Shown: one piece after another, positions 9,475-31,133 of the stretch
Position numbering within the stretch: position 1 is the stretch's first letter
Layout: each line of letters opens with the position of its first letter
Assembly: GCA_029882525.1 (NCBI GenBank)
Contig: JAOUKO010000005.1
Location: forward strand, 1-37,545
Direction of reading: 5' to 3'
From: Candidatus Aminicenantota bacterium
GTDB lineage: Bacteria; Acidobacteriota; Aminicenantia; Aminicenantales; Aminicenantaceae
DNA length: 37,545 nt
Made by a program: the position numbers and the translations under genes
The notes under the pieces: model-generated
Databases searched by the model: none
What the model saw: the letters and a program-made list of their open reading frames with translations, nothing else
What the model was told of the DNA's origin: nothing

Positions 9475-12183
9475 TTATTCTTTTCCGACCACCACCCTTA
9501 ATCCGGTGTACTCTGCAGGAGGTGTGTGTGTTTCTGATTCATCCCCGGGGCTTAGAGCACAGCGACCGATTATCCTGCCTCCCCCTTTTTCATCCACAGC
9601 CCATTCAGCGACATTCCCTCCTAAGCCATAGATCATTTCTTCTCCAGGGACCAGGAACCTGTCGACAGGAAGAAGAAGAGGAGTGGAGCCCTTGAGGTCT
9701 TTGATTTTTTTCAAAAGGAGCCGGGCATCGTCCGGGTTGAGGGTGTAACCCGCCCAGTAATCCAGAGTATTTCCGCTCTTGCCCGCCCTTTGAGTCAGTT
9801 TTTCAGCTTCCGAAACCGTGGGCAGGCGGAATGCCTTACCCGTTATCTTTTTAAGCCAGTTCACGTATTTTTTCGCTTGTTCGAAAGTCACACTGCTCAC
9901 CGGATAATTACCCGTTCCTTCTTCATACTTGTATTTTTTATCAAAGGAGGCCCACTGGGCACGGGTGATTTCAAACCGGCCGGCCTCCAGATCTCCCACT
10001 TTGACCAGCTCGGGCACAAGATTTTCTTTCATTTTTTGACCATACAAACTTCCGGATCTGGCGAATGTTCTCTCTTTGAAGGCGAGGTCGAGCGGTGACC
10101 TTTTCTTAAAAGCTTCGTTTTCAGGTTCCTCTGTCTTGAAGAAATAGTTGTCAAACCAGGCGATTTCCTCTTTCATTTTGCGCTGCTGGTGGGTGAGCAT
10201 TCCCAGTCCGTGGGGCTGTCCGGGGAATACGATAAATCTGACCGGGGCTTTCCCGATCTGCTGCAGGGCCCGGTAGTATTCCCAGCCCTGCCCGTAGGGG
10301 ACATTGGTGTCCTCGGTGCCGTGGAAAATGATTGTGGGGACCCTCATCTCTTTAAGGTGGAAGATGGGTGATTTCTCGATGTAGTGTTGAAGCTCATCCC
10401 ATGGTGCGCCTTTGAAATAGTAGTTGTCGAAACTCACGCCAAAAGCGCAGTTGCCGTAATCGCTGATCCAGTTGACATCAGCTGCTCCCACTCCTGCGAC
10501 TTTAAAGCGGTCGGTCCAGACCGAGAGACCGATGGTTAGAATTCCGCCGTTCGACCATCCCATGGTTCCCAGCTTATCCGGGTCCACCATTCCTTTCTCC
10601 ACGAGAGAATCGATTCCTTTCAGCAGGTCCGGTATTTCATACTCATAATAATGACCTTTGATGGATTCGGCGAATTTCTGGCCGTAGCCACCAGAGCCAT
10701 GATAGTTGGCTTTGAGGACATAGGCTCCTTTTTGAGCCATGATATTGGGATAGGCTCCCCAGGATTCTCGAAAGGAGTCCGTGTCCACACCAGTGGGACC
10801 ACCATGGATCATGAGAATCAGGGGATAGCGTTTTCCCTTCTGGTAATCATGAGGATAGTAGAGGACGCCTTCGATCTCCTCATCCAGGGCCCCGACCCAC
10901 TTAATCACTTCTGTCCTGGCCTTGGTCTTATTCGTTAAATGGGCGTTGAGTTCTGTGATTTGCCGCTGGGATTTGAGCACGTTGTCTTCCAGCTCACCCA
11001 GAAACCACTGAGCCGGTTGGGATGCGGTCGTGTATACGTAGAGGGCTGTGTTTTTCGTTTTGTGAAGAATGAGGCCGAAGATGTTCGGGTAGTGATCTCC
11101 TTCCAACTCCTTGTAGCTGAATGAGGTGCCAGTCCTGTAATAACGGCGCCATTTGGGCCGGGCTCCGTTAGCCAGTGAAACAATGAAACCATCTTTTCTG
11201 GCCCACAGGCCATAATAGAAGAGACCCCATTGCCAATCCAGAGGCACTTCAAAATGTTCTCTGGTTTCAAGGTCGAAATAATACAGGAAATCCGCTCCGG
11301 GACCGTCGTGGACATAGTCACTGGTGCGCAGCACTGAGAAATAAAAGCCTTTGTCATCCAGAGTCCAGATAAACCTGCGTGGCTTGAATGTCGGGTCAGG
11401 AAAGAGCTCTGTGCTGGATTTATCCTTGATGTTGATCAGAAAGAATTTGGGCTTGATCTTTGCATCCACTCCGTAGCGAACGCTCTGGTCGTTCCGGGTC
11501 AGGACCCATTTTTTATCATTGGATAGCGTAAATGAGTTGATTTGGTCCGTGTTCTCTGTGAGTCGGGTCAGTTTCTTTTTCTTTATGTCGTAAATGAAGA
11601 GCCGGTAAGGAGCCATATGCTCCTGGTCTTCGACGATGTAGGAGGTGTCCTTCCTTTCCTTTTTCTCTTCCTCGAGCAGGGTCATTTTTTCCCTTGTGAG
11701 GACCAGGAAGCGGTCGTCGTCCATCCATTCGTACCCTCTCACTCCGAACGGAAGACTGGTTATCTTCCAGGGCTCGCCTCCACGTTTATCCATGAGCCAG
11801 ATTTGAGAGCCTGAGCCCGGGCTTTTATCATCCGGGCTTTTCCGGCTGCTGAGAAAGCTGATGAGCTTTGCTGATGGTGACCACATCGGATTGTATTCGC
11901 TTGTGTCTCCCCTGGTCAGCTGCAGAGTTTCCGGCTTTTCATCGAGACTGCTGAGAAAAATGTGGCTGATACTTCTGTCTTTTTCTTTATCCGGAATTGT
12001 TTTGACCCATAAAGCCCAGTTTCCATCAGGAGAAATAGAGAAACTGCCTGCTGATTCCTGTCCGGTCACATCTTCTATTTTCCATTCGGTCTGGGAAGCG
12101 CCTTTCTTTTCTTCTGGGTAGAGGCCGACTGCCAGACAGAAGATAAGAAGAGAAACAGAGATAATTTTTTTTACGTCTTTCAT
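9475..12183 (-). CDS. Exported S9 prolyl-oligopeptidase-type peptidase fused to a SUMF1-like domain
   Basis: Likely a periplasmic or secreted serine peptidase acting on peptides. The ATG at 12183 (902 aa) is chosen over an in-frame TTG at 12195 because GGAG sits 6 nt before the ATG. Order: signal peptide (about 1-22), a beta-propeller (about 40-420), then an alpha/beta-hydrolase domain (about 430-685). The hydrolase has HGGP, nucleophile S544 in GWSNGG, D625 in HGTEDT and H658 in PGQPHGL. Residues from about 724 resemble the FGE/SUMF1 fold (ITRAQWASF, NYPVSSVTFEQA, GGNVAEW, TGLRVV). It follows the C1 peptidase gene by 21 nt. The fusion is unusual; the C-terminal domain may be structural rather than catalytic. 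Confidence 0.9.
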   Translation of the reverse strand: MKDVKKIISVSLLIFCLAVGLYPEEKKGASQTEWKIEDVTGQESAGSFSISPDGNWALWVKTIPDKEKDRSISHIFLSSLDEKPETLQLTRGDTSEYNPMWSPSAKLISFLSSRKSPDDKSPGSGSQIWLMDKRGGEPWKITSLPFGVRGYEWMDDDRFLVLTREKMTLLEEEKKERKDTSYIVEDQEHMAPYRLFIYDIKKKKLTRLTENTDQINSFTLSNDKKWVLTRNDQSVRYGVDAKIKPKFFLINIKDKSSTELFPDPTFKPRRFIWTLDDKGFYFSVLRTSDYVHDGPGADFLYYFDLETREHFEVPLDWQWGLFYYGLWARKDGFIVSLANGARPKWRRYYRTGTSFSYKELEGDHYPNIFGLILHKTKNTALYVYTTASQPAQWFLGELEDNVLKSQRQITELNAHLTNKTKARTEVIKWVGALDEEIEGVLYYPHDYQKGKRYPLILMIHGGPTGVDTDSFRESWGAYPNIMAQKGAYVLKANYHGSGGYGQKFAESIKGHYYEYEIPDLLKGIDSLVEKGMVDPDKLGTMGWSNGGILTIGLSVWTDRFKVAGVGAADVNWISDYGNCAFGVSFDNYYFKGAPWDELQHYIEKSPIFHLKEMRVPTIIFHGTEDTNVPYGQGWEYYRALQQIGKAPVRFIVFPGQPHGLGMLTHQQRKMKEEIAWFDNYFFKTEEPENEAFKKRSPLDLAFKERTFARSGSLYGQKMKENLVPELVKVGDLEAGRFEITRAQWASFDKKYKYEEGTGNYPVSSVTFEQAKKYVNWLKKITGKAFRLPTVSEAEKLTQRAGKSGNTLDYWAGYTLNPDDARLLLKKIKDLKGSTPLLLPVDRFLVPGEEMIYGLGGNVAEWAVDEKGGGRIIGRCALSPGDESETHTPPAEYTGLRVVVGKE

Positions 12184-12204
12184 CACCTGCTCCAAATTTT
12201 TGAG

Positions 12205-13437
12205 TTAGAATTTTGCCAGAAGGTCAGCCACAGCGTCCTTATGAACCATGAAGTTCAGCATCTTTAGCCGAACGAAATCATCCCTGTAGAAGTAATAACC
12301 TTTAAACTGACCTTGGTGAGCACTCCCTCCCGAGTCTTTGATCAGAAACCAGGCATGAGCTCCTGTCTCCTTGTAGCCCACGAGATGGATGGCGTGGTCA
12401 TCGGTCGAGGACCTGTTATAGAACCTGTATTCCCGGCTGTCCTGGTCGATCAGCCGCCGGGGAATGTCAAAGGTGGGGACGATGGCCATGTCATTTTCTC
12501 CGCTGATCCCGGGCTCGGAGACATCCCCGCCCAAAGCCACAGTGTACCCTTGATTTATGGCACTGACGATAGCGGCGTAGAAGTCATCGAGAGGAACGTT
12601 ATAATATTCCTGGCTGTGCCACCAGTTATCCGGGACCTTGAATTCTCCCTTGGTATAAAACGGAAATGACTTCAGGCTCATGAAGCATACATAATCATCC
12701 AGGGGAAGCTTGAGGACATTATCCAGGTATTCCCTTGGAGTCAGGGTCTGGCCGTTGACGGAGATCGCCTCCGGTGGTTTCCCCAGGTGTTTATCCAGGA
12801 TGCTCTTGACGTAGTTGACGGCCTTCTCTTCCTCCCAGTAGCCGTTTGTCTTGCAGAATTCCAGATAATTCTTGATTTCCCGCAGGAGCTTTCCGTGGTC
12901 GTGTTCTGTCTGACCCGGGAGAAGACCCGTGTAATCCGAGGCCCTGACCGCCCCGTAGTCTTTCATCCGGGCTGTCACGGCGTTGTGTTCTGAGCCGTGG
13001 TTAACGTAGGATTCTCCTTTTTCTTTGATATAGCGCCTCGCTTTTTCGACGAATTCCCAGTAGGCCGTGTGCATCTCTGAGAGTTTTACCGGGTCTTTGC
13101 CCATACGCTTCATCTCGGATTCGAGAAAAGATGTTGTCGCAAAGCACCAGCAGGTACCGGTATTGTATTGGCGGATGGGAGGGAAATGGAAATACTGCTT
13201 GAATTCTTCGGGTGAAGCCGGTTTTTCGATACCCGAGAAGTCCAAAGAGAGATACGTCCTGGTTCTTCCTCTGACTTCTCTTGTCCTGTAGACAGCCGCG
13301 TTTTTCTCCTGAAGGTCCTGATCCGATATCTGGATCACCTGTTTTTCGGCCGCTGTCTCCTTCTGGCTGCAGGATATCAGGGAAAAGCTGATGCAGAGAA
13401 TGAGACTTGCGGTCAGGATAAAGCCGGTCTTTTTCAT
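12205..13437 (-). CDS. C1 (PepC / bleomycin hydrolase-like) cysteine peptidase lipoprotein
   Basis: A papain-fold peptidase that is probably lipid-anchored outside the cytoplasm. I place the start at the ATG at 13437: it has an AGGAGG site, and a promoter lies within the longer frame that begins at a TTG at 13521. The 410-aa protein has a lipobox ending LISC (C23), oxyanion Q90 and nucleophile C96 in GTCWCFA. The helix LSEMHTAYWEFVEKA resembles the PepC family. The catalytic histidine is H348 in DDHAIHLVGY. The third catalytic residue, normally Asn, reads Asp (D368, IKDSGG). It is first in a transcript with the S9 peptidase, so the pair probably digests external protein. Confidence 0.86.
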   Translation of the reverse strand: MKKTGFILTASLILCISFSLISCSQKETAAEKQVIQISDQDLQEKNAAVYRTREVRGRTRTYLSLDFSGIEKPASPEEFKQYFHFPPIRQYNTGTCWCFATTSFLESEMKRMGKDPVKLSEMHTAYWEFVEKARRYIKEKGESYVNHGSEHNAVTARMKDYGAVRASDYTGLLPGQTEHDHGKLLREIKNYLEFCKTNGYWEEEKAVNYVKSILDKHLGKPPEAISVNGQTLTPREYLDNVLKLPLDDYVCFMSLKSFPFYTKGEFKVPDNWWHSQEYYNVPLDDFYAAIVSAINQGYTVALGGDVSEPGISGENDMAIVPTFDIPRRLIDQDSREYRFYNRSSTDDHAIHLVGYKETGAHAWFLIKDSGGSAHQGQFKGYYFYRDDFVRLKMLNFMVHKDAVADLLAKF

Positions 13438-13596: not shown

Positions 13597-14448
13597 GTGA
13601 AGACCATGAGAAGGATCTGCTTTTTCCTTGTTCTTCTGGGAATCCTATCCGCATTCGCGGCGTCCATGTCCTTGGAAGAGGATATTCAAATCACCCTTCA
13701 AGAGAAAAGGATCAAGGATTTTGACCTTTCCGGGCTTTCCCTTGTGTTTTACCTGAACATCGAGAATTTGTCCTCGAGGACGTATTATCTTTCCAGCTAT
13801 GATTACGGTTTTCTTGTTAATCAACAGGAATTCTTCCGTCTGCAGAGGTCTCTGGAGAGCATGATCAAGATTGAGCCCAGGAAAAACAAGCTTCTCTCTT
13901 TTCCTATAAAGATCACCTTTGCCCACCTTTTCCGGCTTGTCGAGGGAATTGAAAAGGCAGACAAGGCTGAGGGAGCGTGGACTGGCTCCATAGCCTTTTC
14001 CGATGGCAAGAGAGAAAGAGGAAGGCTTTCCTTTGACTTCTCGGGTGAATTCCCTATCTTCAAGAAGCCAGAGTTTAAGTTCATTTCCCTTCAGGTGAGA
14101 GACCTGACCATCGGCGGAGCGGATACAGTCTTTGAGGCAAGTTTTGCCAATCCCAATGCCTTTGACCTGACTGTGGAGAGGATCAGCTACAACTATTTTC
14201 TGAGGGACAGCCTGGTTGGCGAGGGCACCGTCAAGGAGAAGAAGGATGTCAAAAGCAAGGGAGAAGCAGCTTTCTCTTTTCCTATGCTTATGAATTTTTT
14301 TGAGGTGGGAAAGGAAGTTTTTACCATGCTCCAGAGAAGTTCCTCCCTCTGCCGGTTTTCCGGAGAGGTCGAGGTGACGACAGAATGGGGCAGGTTGAAA
14401 ATCCCTTTTGACAAGACCGATAGAGTCATCATCTCCAGAAATCCTTGA
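13597..14448 (+). CDS. Exported LEA type 2 / WHy-like protein
   Basis: Function unknown. The 283-aa product begins with a hydrophobic signal (about residues 5-22, ending near AFAASMS). It appears to hold two copies of a beta-rich LEA_2/WHy-like fold, roughly 28-150 and 160-280. The recurring pattern is a short segment such as VFYLNIENLSS or VFEASFANPNAF followed by an L-x-V/Y strand. Such domains occur in bacterial envelope proteins linked to stress or lipid transfer. The GTG start is favoured because AGGAG lies 5 nt upstream; an ATG three codons later is poorly spaced. It is followed 21 nt later by the GT2 gene and is likely co-transcribed with it. Confidence 0.72.
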   Translation: MKTMRRICFFLVLLGILSAFAASMSLEEDIQITLQEKRIKDFDLSGLSLVFYLNIENLSSRTYYLSSYDYGFLVNQQEFFRLQRSLESMIKIEPRKNKLLSFPIKITFAHLFRLVEGIEKADKAEGAWTGSIAFSDGKRERGRLSFDFSGEFPIFKKPEFKFISLQVRDLTIGGADTVFEASFANPNAFDLTVERISYNYFLRDSLVGEGTVKEKKDVKSKGEAAFSFPMLMNFFEVGKEVFTMLQRSSSLCRFSGEVEVTTEWGRLKIPFDKTDRVIISRNP

Positions 14449-28701: not shown

Positions 28702-30567
28702 GTGGCTGAGAAAGAGACGAGAATCTTATTGGGCAATGCCGCCATAGCCAGAGGTCTTGTTGAAGCTGGCTGTCATGTCGTGACATCTTATCCGGGAACA
28801 CCGAGCTCGGAAATCATTCCCGCCGTGGTGGAGTATAAAAAAGAGTTAGGCCTGAACACTTACATCGAGTGGTCAGCCAATGAAAAGGTTGCCTTTGATA
28901 ATGCCTTGGCAGCCAGCTTAACCGGAAAAAGGTCAGCCGTCGCCATGAAACAGGTGGGATTGAATGTCGCTTCTGATTCTCTGCTGAGTTCAGCATATAC
29001 AGGCGTTATCGGAGGGATGGTCGTTATCAGCTGTGATGACCCAGGCCCGCTCAGCTCACAAACCGAACAGGATTCCCGTTTCTTCGCCATGTTTGCCAAG
29101 GTGCCGGCCTACGATCCTTCGACTCCACAAGAGGCAAAGGAAATGGTCAAGGAGGCCTTTGAGCTTTCAGAAGCGTATCAGATTCCTGTCATTTTGCGTC
29201 CGACGATCAAGGTGTCCCATGCCAAGCAGAGCGTGAAGATTTCGCCGGTGAAAGTGCTCGATAGAAAGGCCGATTTCAAGAAAGACCCAGAGCGGTGGGC
29301 CGCCACTCCCAAATACAGGTTTGTTCTACACAAGAAATTGAATGAGGCCCTCAAGAAAATAGAGGAAAGATTTGAGCAGGAATCCCGTTGGAATTATGAA
29401 GTCAAGGCCAGCCGCGACGCTCCTCTTGGAATCATCACCTGCAGTGTGAGCTTTGCTGTGCTCATGGATATTCTGGAGGAGTTGGACTTAAAAAAAGAAA
29501 TCAATATCTTTAAAGTTGGAACTCCTTTTCCCCTTCCCCAAAAAAGAGTTGCGGATTTCATCGAGAGGCATAAGAGGGTTCTGGTGATGGAGGAGACCGA
29601 TTCTGTTATCGAGTATCAAATAGTTGATAAAAGCAAGGTGCTCGGGAGGCTGACCGGCCACATTCCATTGCAGGGAGAGCTCACTCCGGATGTGATTTAT
29701 GATATCCTGGCAAGAGTTTTGAAAGAGATGGGAATGGCCGATTTGGAGAAGAGCGGGGATGAGCGGCTTGCCAAGCTCATCGAAGACCTGAATATTGATG
29801 TGCGCAGGCCGACCTTATGTGCGGGCTGCCCCGAGAGAGCGGCGTTTTTTGCGATCAAGAGAGCCCTTCCCAGGGCCATCTACAGCAGTGATATAGGCTG
29901 TTACACCCTCGGGCTCAACCTGAAAGCGGTGGACACCGTCCTCGATATGGGAGCTGGCATTACCCTGGCAAGCGGATTTTATCATGCCTATCATCAGGAT
30001 GAAAATGATGTCCCGATAGTGGCGACCATGGGTGACTCGACTTTTTATCATTCGGGCCCGGCTTCACTTTTGAACGCAGTCTACAACAAGGCGAGATTTG
30101 TTTTGGTCATCATGGACAACGAGATAACCGCCATGACAGGGATGCAGCCTACTCCGGGCTCAGGGATAACGGCTGAGGGGAGCAAAGGGGAAAAGATCTC
30201 TCTGGAGGAATTGATTAAAGGGTGCGGAGTGAGATGGATCAAGACAATAGATCCTTACGATGTGGAGAATTTAATAGTACTGCTGAAAGAAGCAAGAAAA
30301 TATACTCAGAAGCGCGACGGAGGCATAGCTGTCATAGTTGCCAGACATCCCTGTCTGATCCGCTATCCGGATGTGTGCAGGGAAAATCCTGTTAAAGTTG
30401 TGATAACCTCTGACTGTGATGGCTGTCAGTATTGCCTGGATTATTTTGAGTGTCCTGCGCTTTATCTGAATGAAGAAAAAGATCGTGTCGAGATCGACCG
30501 GAATTTCTGTGTCGACTGCGGCGTGTGCATCCATGCCTGTCCGAAAGGAGCTATCATACCGGTATGA
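28702..30567 (+). CDS. iorA: Indolepyruvate:ferredoxin oxidoreductase, alpha subunit
   Basis: With IorB it oxidatively decarboxylates aryl-2-oxoacids to aryl-acetyl-CoA, reducing ferredoxin. The 621-aa protein starts at a GTG with no clear ribosome-binding site. It has the N-terminal pyrimidine-binding half (SYPGTPSSEIIP; EWSANEKVAFDNALAAS) and a TPP-binding half near residues 370-500 (LCAGCPERAAFF, MGDSTFYHSG, DNEITAMTGMQPTPG). The C-terminal ferredoxin domain carries C572/C575/C578/C584 and C603/C606/C609/C613 for two 4Fe-4S clusters. It follows the aminotransferase by 42 nt and overlaps iorB by 4 nt. Confidence 0.94.
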   Translation: MAEKETRILLGNAAIARGLVEAGCHVVTSYPGTPSSEIIPAVVEYKKELGLNTYIEWSANEKVAFDNALAASLTGKRSAVAMKQVGLNVASDSLLSSAYTGVIGGMVVISCDDPGPLSSQTEQDSRFFAMFAKVPAYDPSTPQEAKEMVKEAFELSEAYQIPVILRPTIKVSHAKQSVKISPVKVLDRKADFKKDPERWAATPKYRFVLHKKLNEALKKIEERFEQESRWNYEVKASRDAPLGIITCSVSFAVLMDILEELDLKKEINIFKVGTPFPLPQKRVADFIERHKRVLVMEETDSVIEYQIVDKSKVLGRLTGHIPLQGELTPDVIYDILARVLKEMGMADLEKSGDERLAKLIEDLNIDVRRPTLCAGCPERAAFFAIKRALPRAIYSSDIGCYTLGLNLKAVDTVLDMGAGITLASGFYHAYHQDENDVPIVATMGDSTFYHSGPASLLNAVYNKARFVLVIMDNEITAMTGMQPTPGSGITAEGSKGEKISLEELIKGCGVRWIKTIDPYDVENLIVLLKEARKYTQKRDGGIAVIVARHPCLIRYPDVCRENPVKVVITSDCDGCQYCLDYFECPALYLNEEKDRVEIDRNFCVDCGVCIHACPKGAIIPV

Positions 30568-31133
30568 AAGTACAGATCGTTTTAGCCGGGATCGGGGGGC
30601 AGGGGATACTGTTTTCTTCAAAGATATTTTCAGAATTGGGGTTGAGGTTGGGTCTGGATGTCATGGGCTCAGAAACCCACGGCATGAGTCAACGGGGTGG
30701 CTCAGTGACCGCTCATCTGAAGCTGGGTGGGTATCAAAGTCCTATGATCAGGACAGACACGGCTGATATTCTCTACTCTTTTGAGGAAAAAGAGACTTAC
30801 AGGACCTTGAGATTCTTGAGAAGAGCAGGCACGTGTTTTATCAATCTTTTGAGCGAGGATCGATTTGATAAAAAAATCCTCGATCATCTTAAGAAAAAAG
30901 AGATAACATTGAGAGCATACGATGCCAGCGGAGCGGCCTCTAAGATCGGATCGATCTTAACTGCCAATATAATGCTCATCGGCTATTCTGTGGGGACAGG
31001 ATTGGTCCCTTTTAGGCACGAGGATTTGAGATGTGTACTGGCATCGGTGAGCAAAAAGAAAGACCTTAAGATGAACCTGAAGGCCTTTGACTCCGCTGTT
31101 CGGGAAGGACGGTCATCCCTAAATCCTCTTTAG
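30564..31133 (+). CDS. iorB: Indolepyruvate:ferredoxin oxidoreductase, beta subunit
   Basis: Second subunit of the arylpyruvate:ferredoxin oxidoreductase, of the pyruvate/ketoisovalerate oxidoreductase gamma family. The ATG at 30564, overlapping the iorA stop (ATGA), is preferred over a frame extending back to 30525 because the conserved N-terminus is MKVQIVLAGIGGQGILFSSK. The 189 aa include the GSETHGMSQRGGSVTAHLKLG motif that contacts CoA and TPP partners in this family. It is followed 14 nt later by the HAD-ECH gene, so the operon continues. The enzyme is expected to be oxygen-sensitive. Confidence 0.93.
   Translation: MKVQIVLAGIGGQGILFSSKIFSELGLRLGLDVMGSETHGMSQRGGSVTAHLKLGGYQSPMIRTDTADILYSFEEKETYRTLRFLRRAGTCFINLLSEDRFDKKILDHLKKKEITLRAYDASGAASKIGSILTANIMLIGYSVGTGLVPFRHEDLRCVLASVSKKKDLKMNLKAFDSAVREGRSSLNPL

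Follow-up and report, generated by a model that had tools for sequence, protein, structure and literature searches.

The S9 serine peptidase encoded in this window (the whole stretch of DNA that was analysed, 37,545 nucleotides from a Candidatus Aminicenantota bacterium) is joined to a C-terminal domain of the SUMF1/formylglycine-generating enzyme (FGE) type. The fusion is a real, apparently undescribed peptidase subfamily and not an accident, since the same joined protein is found in several bacterial phyla. We think it probable that these proteins are active S9 peptidases with a non-catalytic accessory tail; whether ligand binding is the tail's main job is, in our view, an evenly balanced question.

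The gene occupies an open reading frame at 9475..12195 on the minus strand, begins with the ATG at 12183, and continues through 902 codons in a single frame that has no internal stops (Table 1). A preliminary description of this DNA had given the correct coordinates, to which we add the strand, on which it was silent; its placement of both domains in one frame is borne out by the uninterrupted codons and the two Pfam matches. It had also named a frameshift joining two genes as one of two findings that would refute the fusion, the other being the lack of a significant SUMF1 match. The chance that a frameshift or misassembly produced the joined gene is negligible: the frame is unbroken and the identical fusion stands on 30 further contigs, which together exclude a frameshift, a chimera or a misassembly.

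Table 1. Positions in the window of the S9-SUMF1 gene, its predicted parts and nearby genes.
Feature	Residues	Positions	Strand	Basis
S9 peptidase with C-terminal SUMF1/FGE-like domain, complete gene, 902 aa		9475..12183	-	ORF listing, Pfam, alignment
Predicted signal peptide (Sec-type) or membrane anchor, hydrophobic core about 7-21, no lipobox	1-26	12106..12183	-	Hydropathy scan
Predicted beta-propeller	35-400	10984..12081	-	Predicted strands; Foldseek full-length match to 8wt1, target TM 0.87
Alpha/beta-hydrolase catalytic domain, Ser544/Asp625/His658	401-690	10114..10983	-	PF00326, E=9.4e-46; triad invariant in 31
Linker, conserved	691-724	10012..10113	-	Alignment; ordered in model
SUMF1/FGE-like domain, minimal, without cysteine pair	725-899	9487..10011	-	PF03781, tail model, Foldseek
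Peptidase C1-like predicted lipoprotein, bleomycin-hydrolase type		12205-13437	-	PF03051, E=6.3e-13; LISC lipobox
LEA_2-domain protein		13597-14448	+	
2-oxoacid (indolepyruvate-type) ferredoxin oxidoreductase, two overlapping ORFs		28702-31133	+	

A scan of contigs found 21 relatives, 20 of them full length with the tail; the 21st (L029) is truncated where its contig stops yet includes the tail. Across 60 relatives of the host, 14 matches score above 700 bits, and every one of them reaches into the tail (to at least residue 898); the S9 matches that come after these, at about 280 bits, end near residue 690 and are without it. Three of the 14 duplicate contigs already counted (L030=L011, L031=L013, L032=L009, with identical scores), which leaves 30 distinct full-length homologues, 39-67% identical, with the same architecture across several phyla. 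Their source labels are Aminicenantes, KSB1, Caldithrix, Deferribacteres, Bacteroidetes, Balneolaceae (Fodinibius/Aliifodinibius), Planctomycetota, Krumholzibacteriota and Latescibacterota, though single labels may be wrong because most of the records are metagenome bins. The preliminary description had proposed a search for this architecture in other genomes and had called the SUMF1-like domain an unusual partner for S9 peptidases. These homologues answer the first point and refine the second: the pairing is no one-off, but the usual domain arrangement of a single monophyletic clade of S9 peptidases.

When a profile of the tail was searched against 149 genomes of the phylum, the family appeared in ten (E<=1.7e-31, with other SUMF1 domains from 1.4e-17), in ORFs of 724-925 aa that all include the peptidase part. 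Each of 12 named-record genomes searched holds one copy, at 9.8e-68 versus 1.1e-11 for other SUMF1 domains. In the genomes searched, then, the family's SUMF1 domain was never seen apart from an ORF with the peptidase. A peptidase-part tree, built from the 31 fusion proteins and 15 S9-only proteins with 200 bootstrap trees, places the fusion proteins in a single clade (100/100) with one state change in 200 of the 200 bootstrap trees; the branch leading to the clade is long (1.53), which leaves its sister group uncertain. The tail tree repeats the main groups of the peptidase tree, as would be expected had the two halves travelled together: it recovers Bacteroidota/Balneolota, the window's nine-member group, the second group of the window's order, and Krumholzibacteriota/Latescibacterota. 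The two trees fit a single old fusion that appears to have been retained since.

The body of the protein carries the marks of peptidase family S9: a PF00326 match over residues 479-681 (156 bits against a cut-off of 22.6), the catalytic triad in the order Ser-Asp-His, and an N-terminal beta-propeller in the strand pattern and in Foldseek. The triad lies where the preliminary description put it, and S544, D625, H658 and the GWSNG nucleophile motif (GxSxG) are invariant in all 31 full-length proteins. With this triad intact, the body would be expected to be active as a peptidase. A hydrophobic N-terminal segment is present in 30 of the 31 members by hydropathy scan (the exception is L022, going by its ORF as read), which makes export likely. 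The AlphaFold2 model of the full protein has a mean pLDDT of 87.5 and a pTM of 0.76. Among solved structures, S9 carboxypeptidases and acylaminoacyl peptidases (8wt1, 7ep9, 5yzm, 4hxe) come closest; they share the propeller, the alpha/beta-hydrolase and the Ser-Asp-His order and match the body over their full length (target TM 0.81-0.87), but at only about 20-24% identity; the likeness to the carboxypeptidase subgroup is one of overall fold. Of the earlier reading as an exported prolyl-oligopeptidase, the S9 peptidase stands, export is likely, and a specificity for prolyl bonds is no more than putative. The solved structures also stop after the hydrolase domain, where the S9-SUMF1 protein continues for about 210 further residues.

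These further residues open with a linker in which S696, G715, L722 and P724 are invariant and P697 and L698 nearly so, which suggests that the attachment of the tail to the hydrolase is fixed rather than loose; from this linker conservation the tail may also pack tightly on the hydrolase. The resemblance of the C-terminal region to SUMF1, noted in the preliminary description, holds in a domain search: PF03781 (FGE-sulfatase) matches residues 738-865 with 31.8 bits (E=1.5e-7, curated cut-off 23.3), spanning profile positions 69-192 of 255. The tail domain searched alone scores 36.2 bits, and all 31 C-terminal domains match individually (E<=0.01, best 2.3e-17). Mean pairwise identity is 59.5% in the hydrolase, 46% in the tail and 39% in the propeller. 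Modelled alone, the tail reaches a pLDDT of 91.8, and Foldseek matches it to CarF, SUMF2, ToxD, FGE, PvdO, CalU17 and OvoA/EgtB (E about 1e-5 to 1e-3, prob 1.00) with moderate superposition (TM about 0.5-0.63, rmsd 5.5-13). The model therefore points to an FGE superfamily fold in compact, diverged form.

Comparison with known members of the superfamily shows both likeness and distance. FGE itself (SUMF1, PF03781) shares the core motifs EVT.AQ, WL..tG..yRLP, GGNVAEW and GLRVV, but solved FGE chains have about 270-300 residues against about 175 in the tail. SUMF2/pFGE, an FGE-fold protein not known to have FGE activity, is a structural match (1y4j, E=1.2e-5), but unlike the tail it is free-standing, eukaryotic and longer. 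Among solved structures the best profile match is to the PorK/GldK lipoproteins of the T9SS ring (7.1e-13); the tail nevertheless falls far under the GldK equivalog cut-off (TIGR03525, 28.2 versus 350 bits), and PorK/GldK contain no peptidase.

It is tempting to attribute FGE activity to a domain with an above-threshold PF03781 match, a fold related to FGE, PvdO and EgtB, and a retained GGNVAEW-type core, and so to regard the protein as bifunctional, the tail being an active FGE or another oxidative enzyme. We consider this very improbable. Active FGE uses copper, requires oxygen, and depends on two active-site cysteines, Cys336 and Cys341 in the human enzyme (PMC4505483). The alignment shows no conserved Cys column in the tail across the 31 members; 13 of them contain not one Cys beyond residue 690, and the single Cys of the window's tail (residue 875) is common to five members only. 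Aligned with ordinary SUMF1 domains, the family is without the stretch that separates the GGS-type strand from GLRVV, the site of the FGE pair, and also without the N-terminal GxFxMG strand. The host genome has 11 sulfatase matches, and all three loci fetched show the CxPxR motif; it also encodes a radical-SAM sulfatase maturase (anSME, 425.7 bits, above cut-off) at C436:745-4836, on the same contig as two Cys-type sulfatases. No other PF03781 domain was detected in this genome, although a separate FGE could have been missed as the assembly is 91.6% complete. No part of the 902 residues has a Pfam match to the DinB-type domain that carries iron ligands in EgtB/OvoA. The need of FGE for oxygen also sits poorly with the 2-oxoacid:ferredoxin oxidoreductase genes and the anSME, which suggest an anaerobic host. 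Given the absent cysteine pair, an anSME for the host sulfatases and the tail's standing as the sole PF03781 domain detected, the tail is almost certainly not a formylglycine-generating enzyme. The missing pair, the shortened segment and the host anSME lead us to reject that identity; the first and last of these strengthen the idea of a binding module put forward in the preliminary description, which had pointed to the copper-binding cysteines as the feature to check. To judge from its sequence and from the host genome, the tail is neither needed nor equipped for sulfatase activation.

One further site offers a lead only. The residues that we take to form the second calcium site of human FGE (N293, G296, A298, E300) would map to 853, 856, 858 and 860. 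At 853 the window has Gly, whereas Asp prevails in members that do not belong to the window's own group; E860 is nearly invariant.

The genes around the fusion do not explain it, because those next to it in close relatives are not seen beside more distant members. A C1-like gene is found on the same strand, 21 bp upstream; its product seems to have Asp in place of the customary catalytic Asn (LIKDSGG). It adjoins the S9-SUMF1 gene only in close relatives (the window, L009, L011, L013, L033), was not found in L010 or L034-L036, and was undetected near more distant homologues, although the flanks of some of these are short. We therefore reject a conserved operon with this peptidase as the functional key. 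Downstream, a CCA-adding enzyme and an epimerase likewise accompany the gene in close relatives only. The LEA_2-domain gene is divergent to the C1/S9 pair and is kept with a glycosyltransferase neighbour in L010 and L034-L036. Farther along the window, the oxidoreductase ORFs adjoin an aminotransferase; such genes are of the kind used in amino-acid fermentation, in line with extracytoplasmic peptide cleavage. The host genome also encodes S9-type peptidases in many further ORFs, which fits a protein-degrading way of life.

How, then, might the two parts work together? The propeller and alpha/beta-hydrolase would cleave peptides outside the cytoplasm, trimming them for a protein-degrading anaerobe. 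The best reading of the compact, catalytically dead tail, held on the hydrolase by the conserved linker, is that of an accessory module, which may bind a substrate, cell-envelope or partner ligand, or may shape how the catalytic chamber is reached or how oligomers assemble. Alternatively, the tail could be purely structural, binding no ligand itself and serving as a rigid support or as a surface for oligomerisation. We hold this to be possible, if somewhat doubtful. It would account for the conserved linker, the even conservation and the constant fusion to the peptidase, and SUMF-fold domains do build assemblies, the PorK/GldK ring of the T9SS among them. However, the invariant tail residues N805, W810, G812, G873 and A876 are not confined to the vicinity of the linker but extend into the middle of the domain and its C-terminal part, and an assembly-type role would draw on analogy with that ring.

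Many FGS domains are variable domains of DGRs or conflict systems, and the frequent linkage of SUMF1/FGS domains to both (PMC8195603) raises the same prospect here. It is extremely improbable for this family, in which the C-terminus is conserved without hypervariability and the neighbours are housekeeping genes. The window ORFs scanned include no reverse transcriptase and no conflict-system NTPase; the conserved C-terminus and the lack of a reverse transcriptase among these ORFs lead us to reject a DGR variable domain. Returning to the accessory module, a more specific version is that the dead FGE-fold domain of this cross-phylum subfamily either acts as a gate to the catalytic chamber or recognises something specific on the substrate, such as a glycan or a modified peptide. 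We regard this as rather unlikely in its particulars; if true, the peptidase would gain a dedicated target.

The fusion is a conserved new variant built from known parts. Peptidases with a C-terminal PF03781 domain are known from metacaspase-FGE-sulfatase fusions (PMC4933709), but there the peptidase is a caspase-like cysteine peptidase of family C14, with a catalytic domain unrelated to S9. FGS domains have been proposed as sensors in conflict systems (PMC8195603). The open-access literature searched holds no description of S9 or prolyl oligopeptidase combined with SUMF1/FGE, though domain databases may list it already, and FGE, SUMF1 and DUF323 are unmentioned in a survey of prokaryotic serine protease architectures (PMC2605481).

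These results add a class of serine peptidases to the partners that SUMF1-fold domains have, and they caution that S9-SUMF1 proteins should not be annotated as sulfatase activators. The tail's role is testable, as relatives of the protein occur in isolated bacteria (Fodinibius halophilus, Nafulsella turpanensis). Altogether, the results define a peptidase subfamily that is present once in each of the genomes examined and is conserved in several phyla; this implies that its role is a specific one and goes further than breaking down peptides in general.
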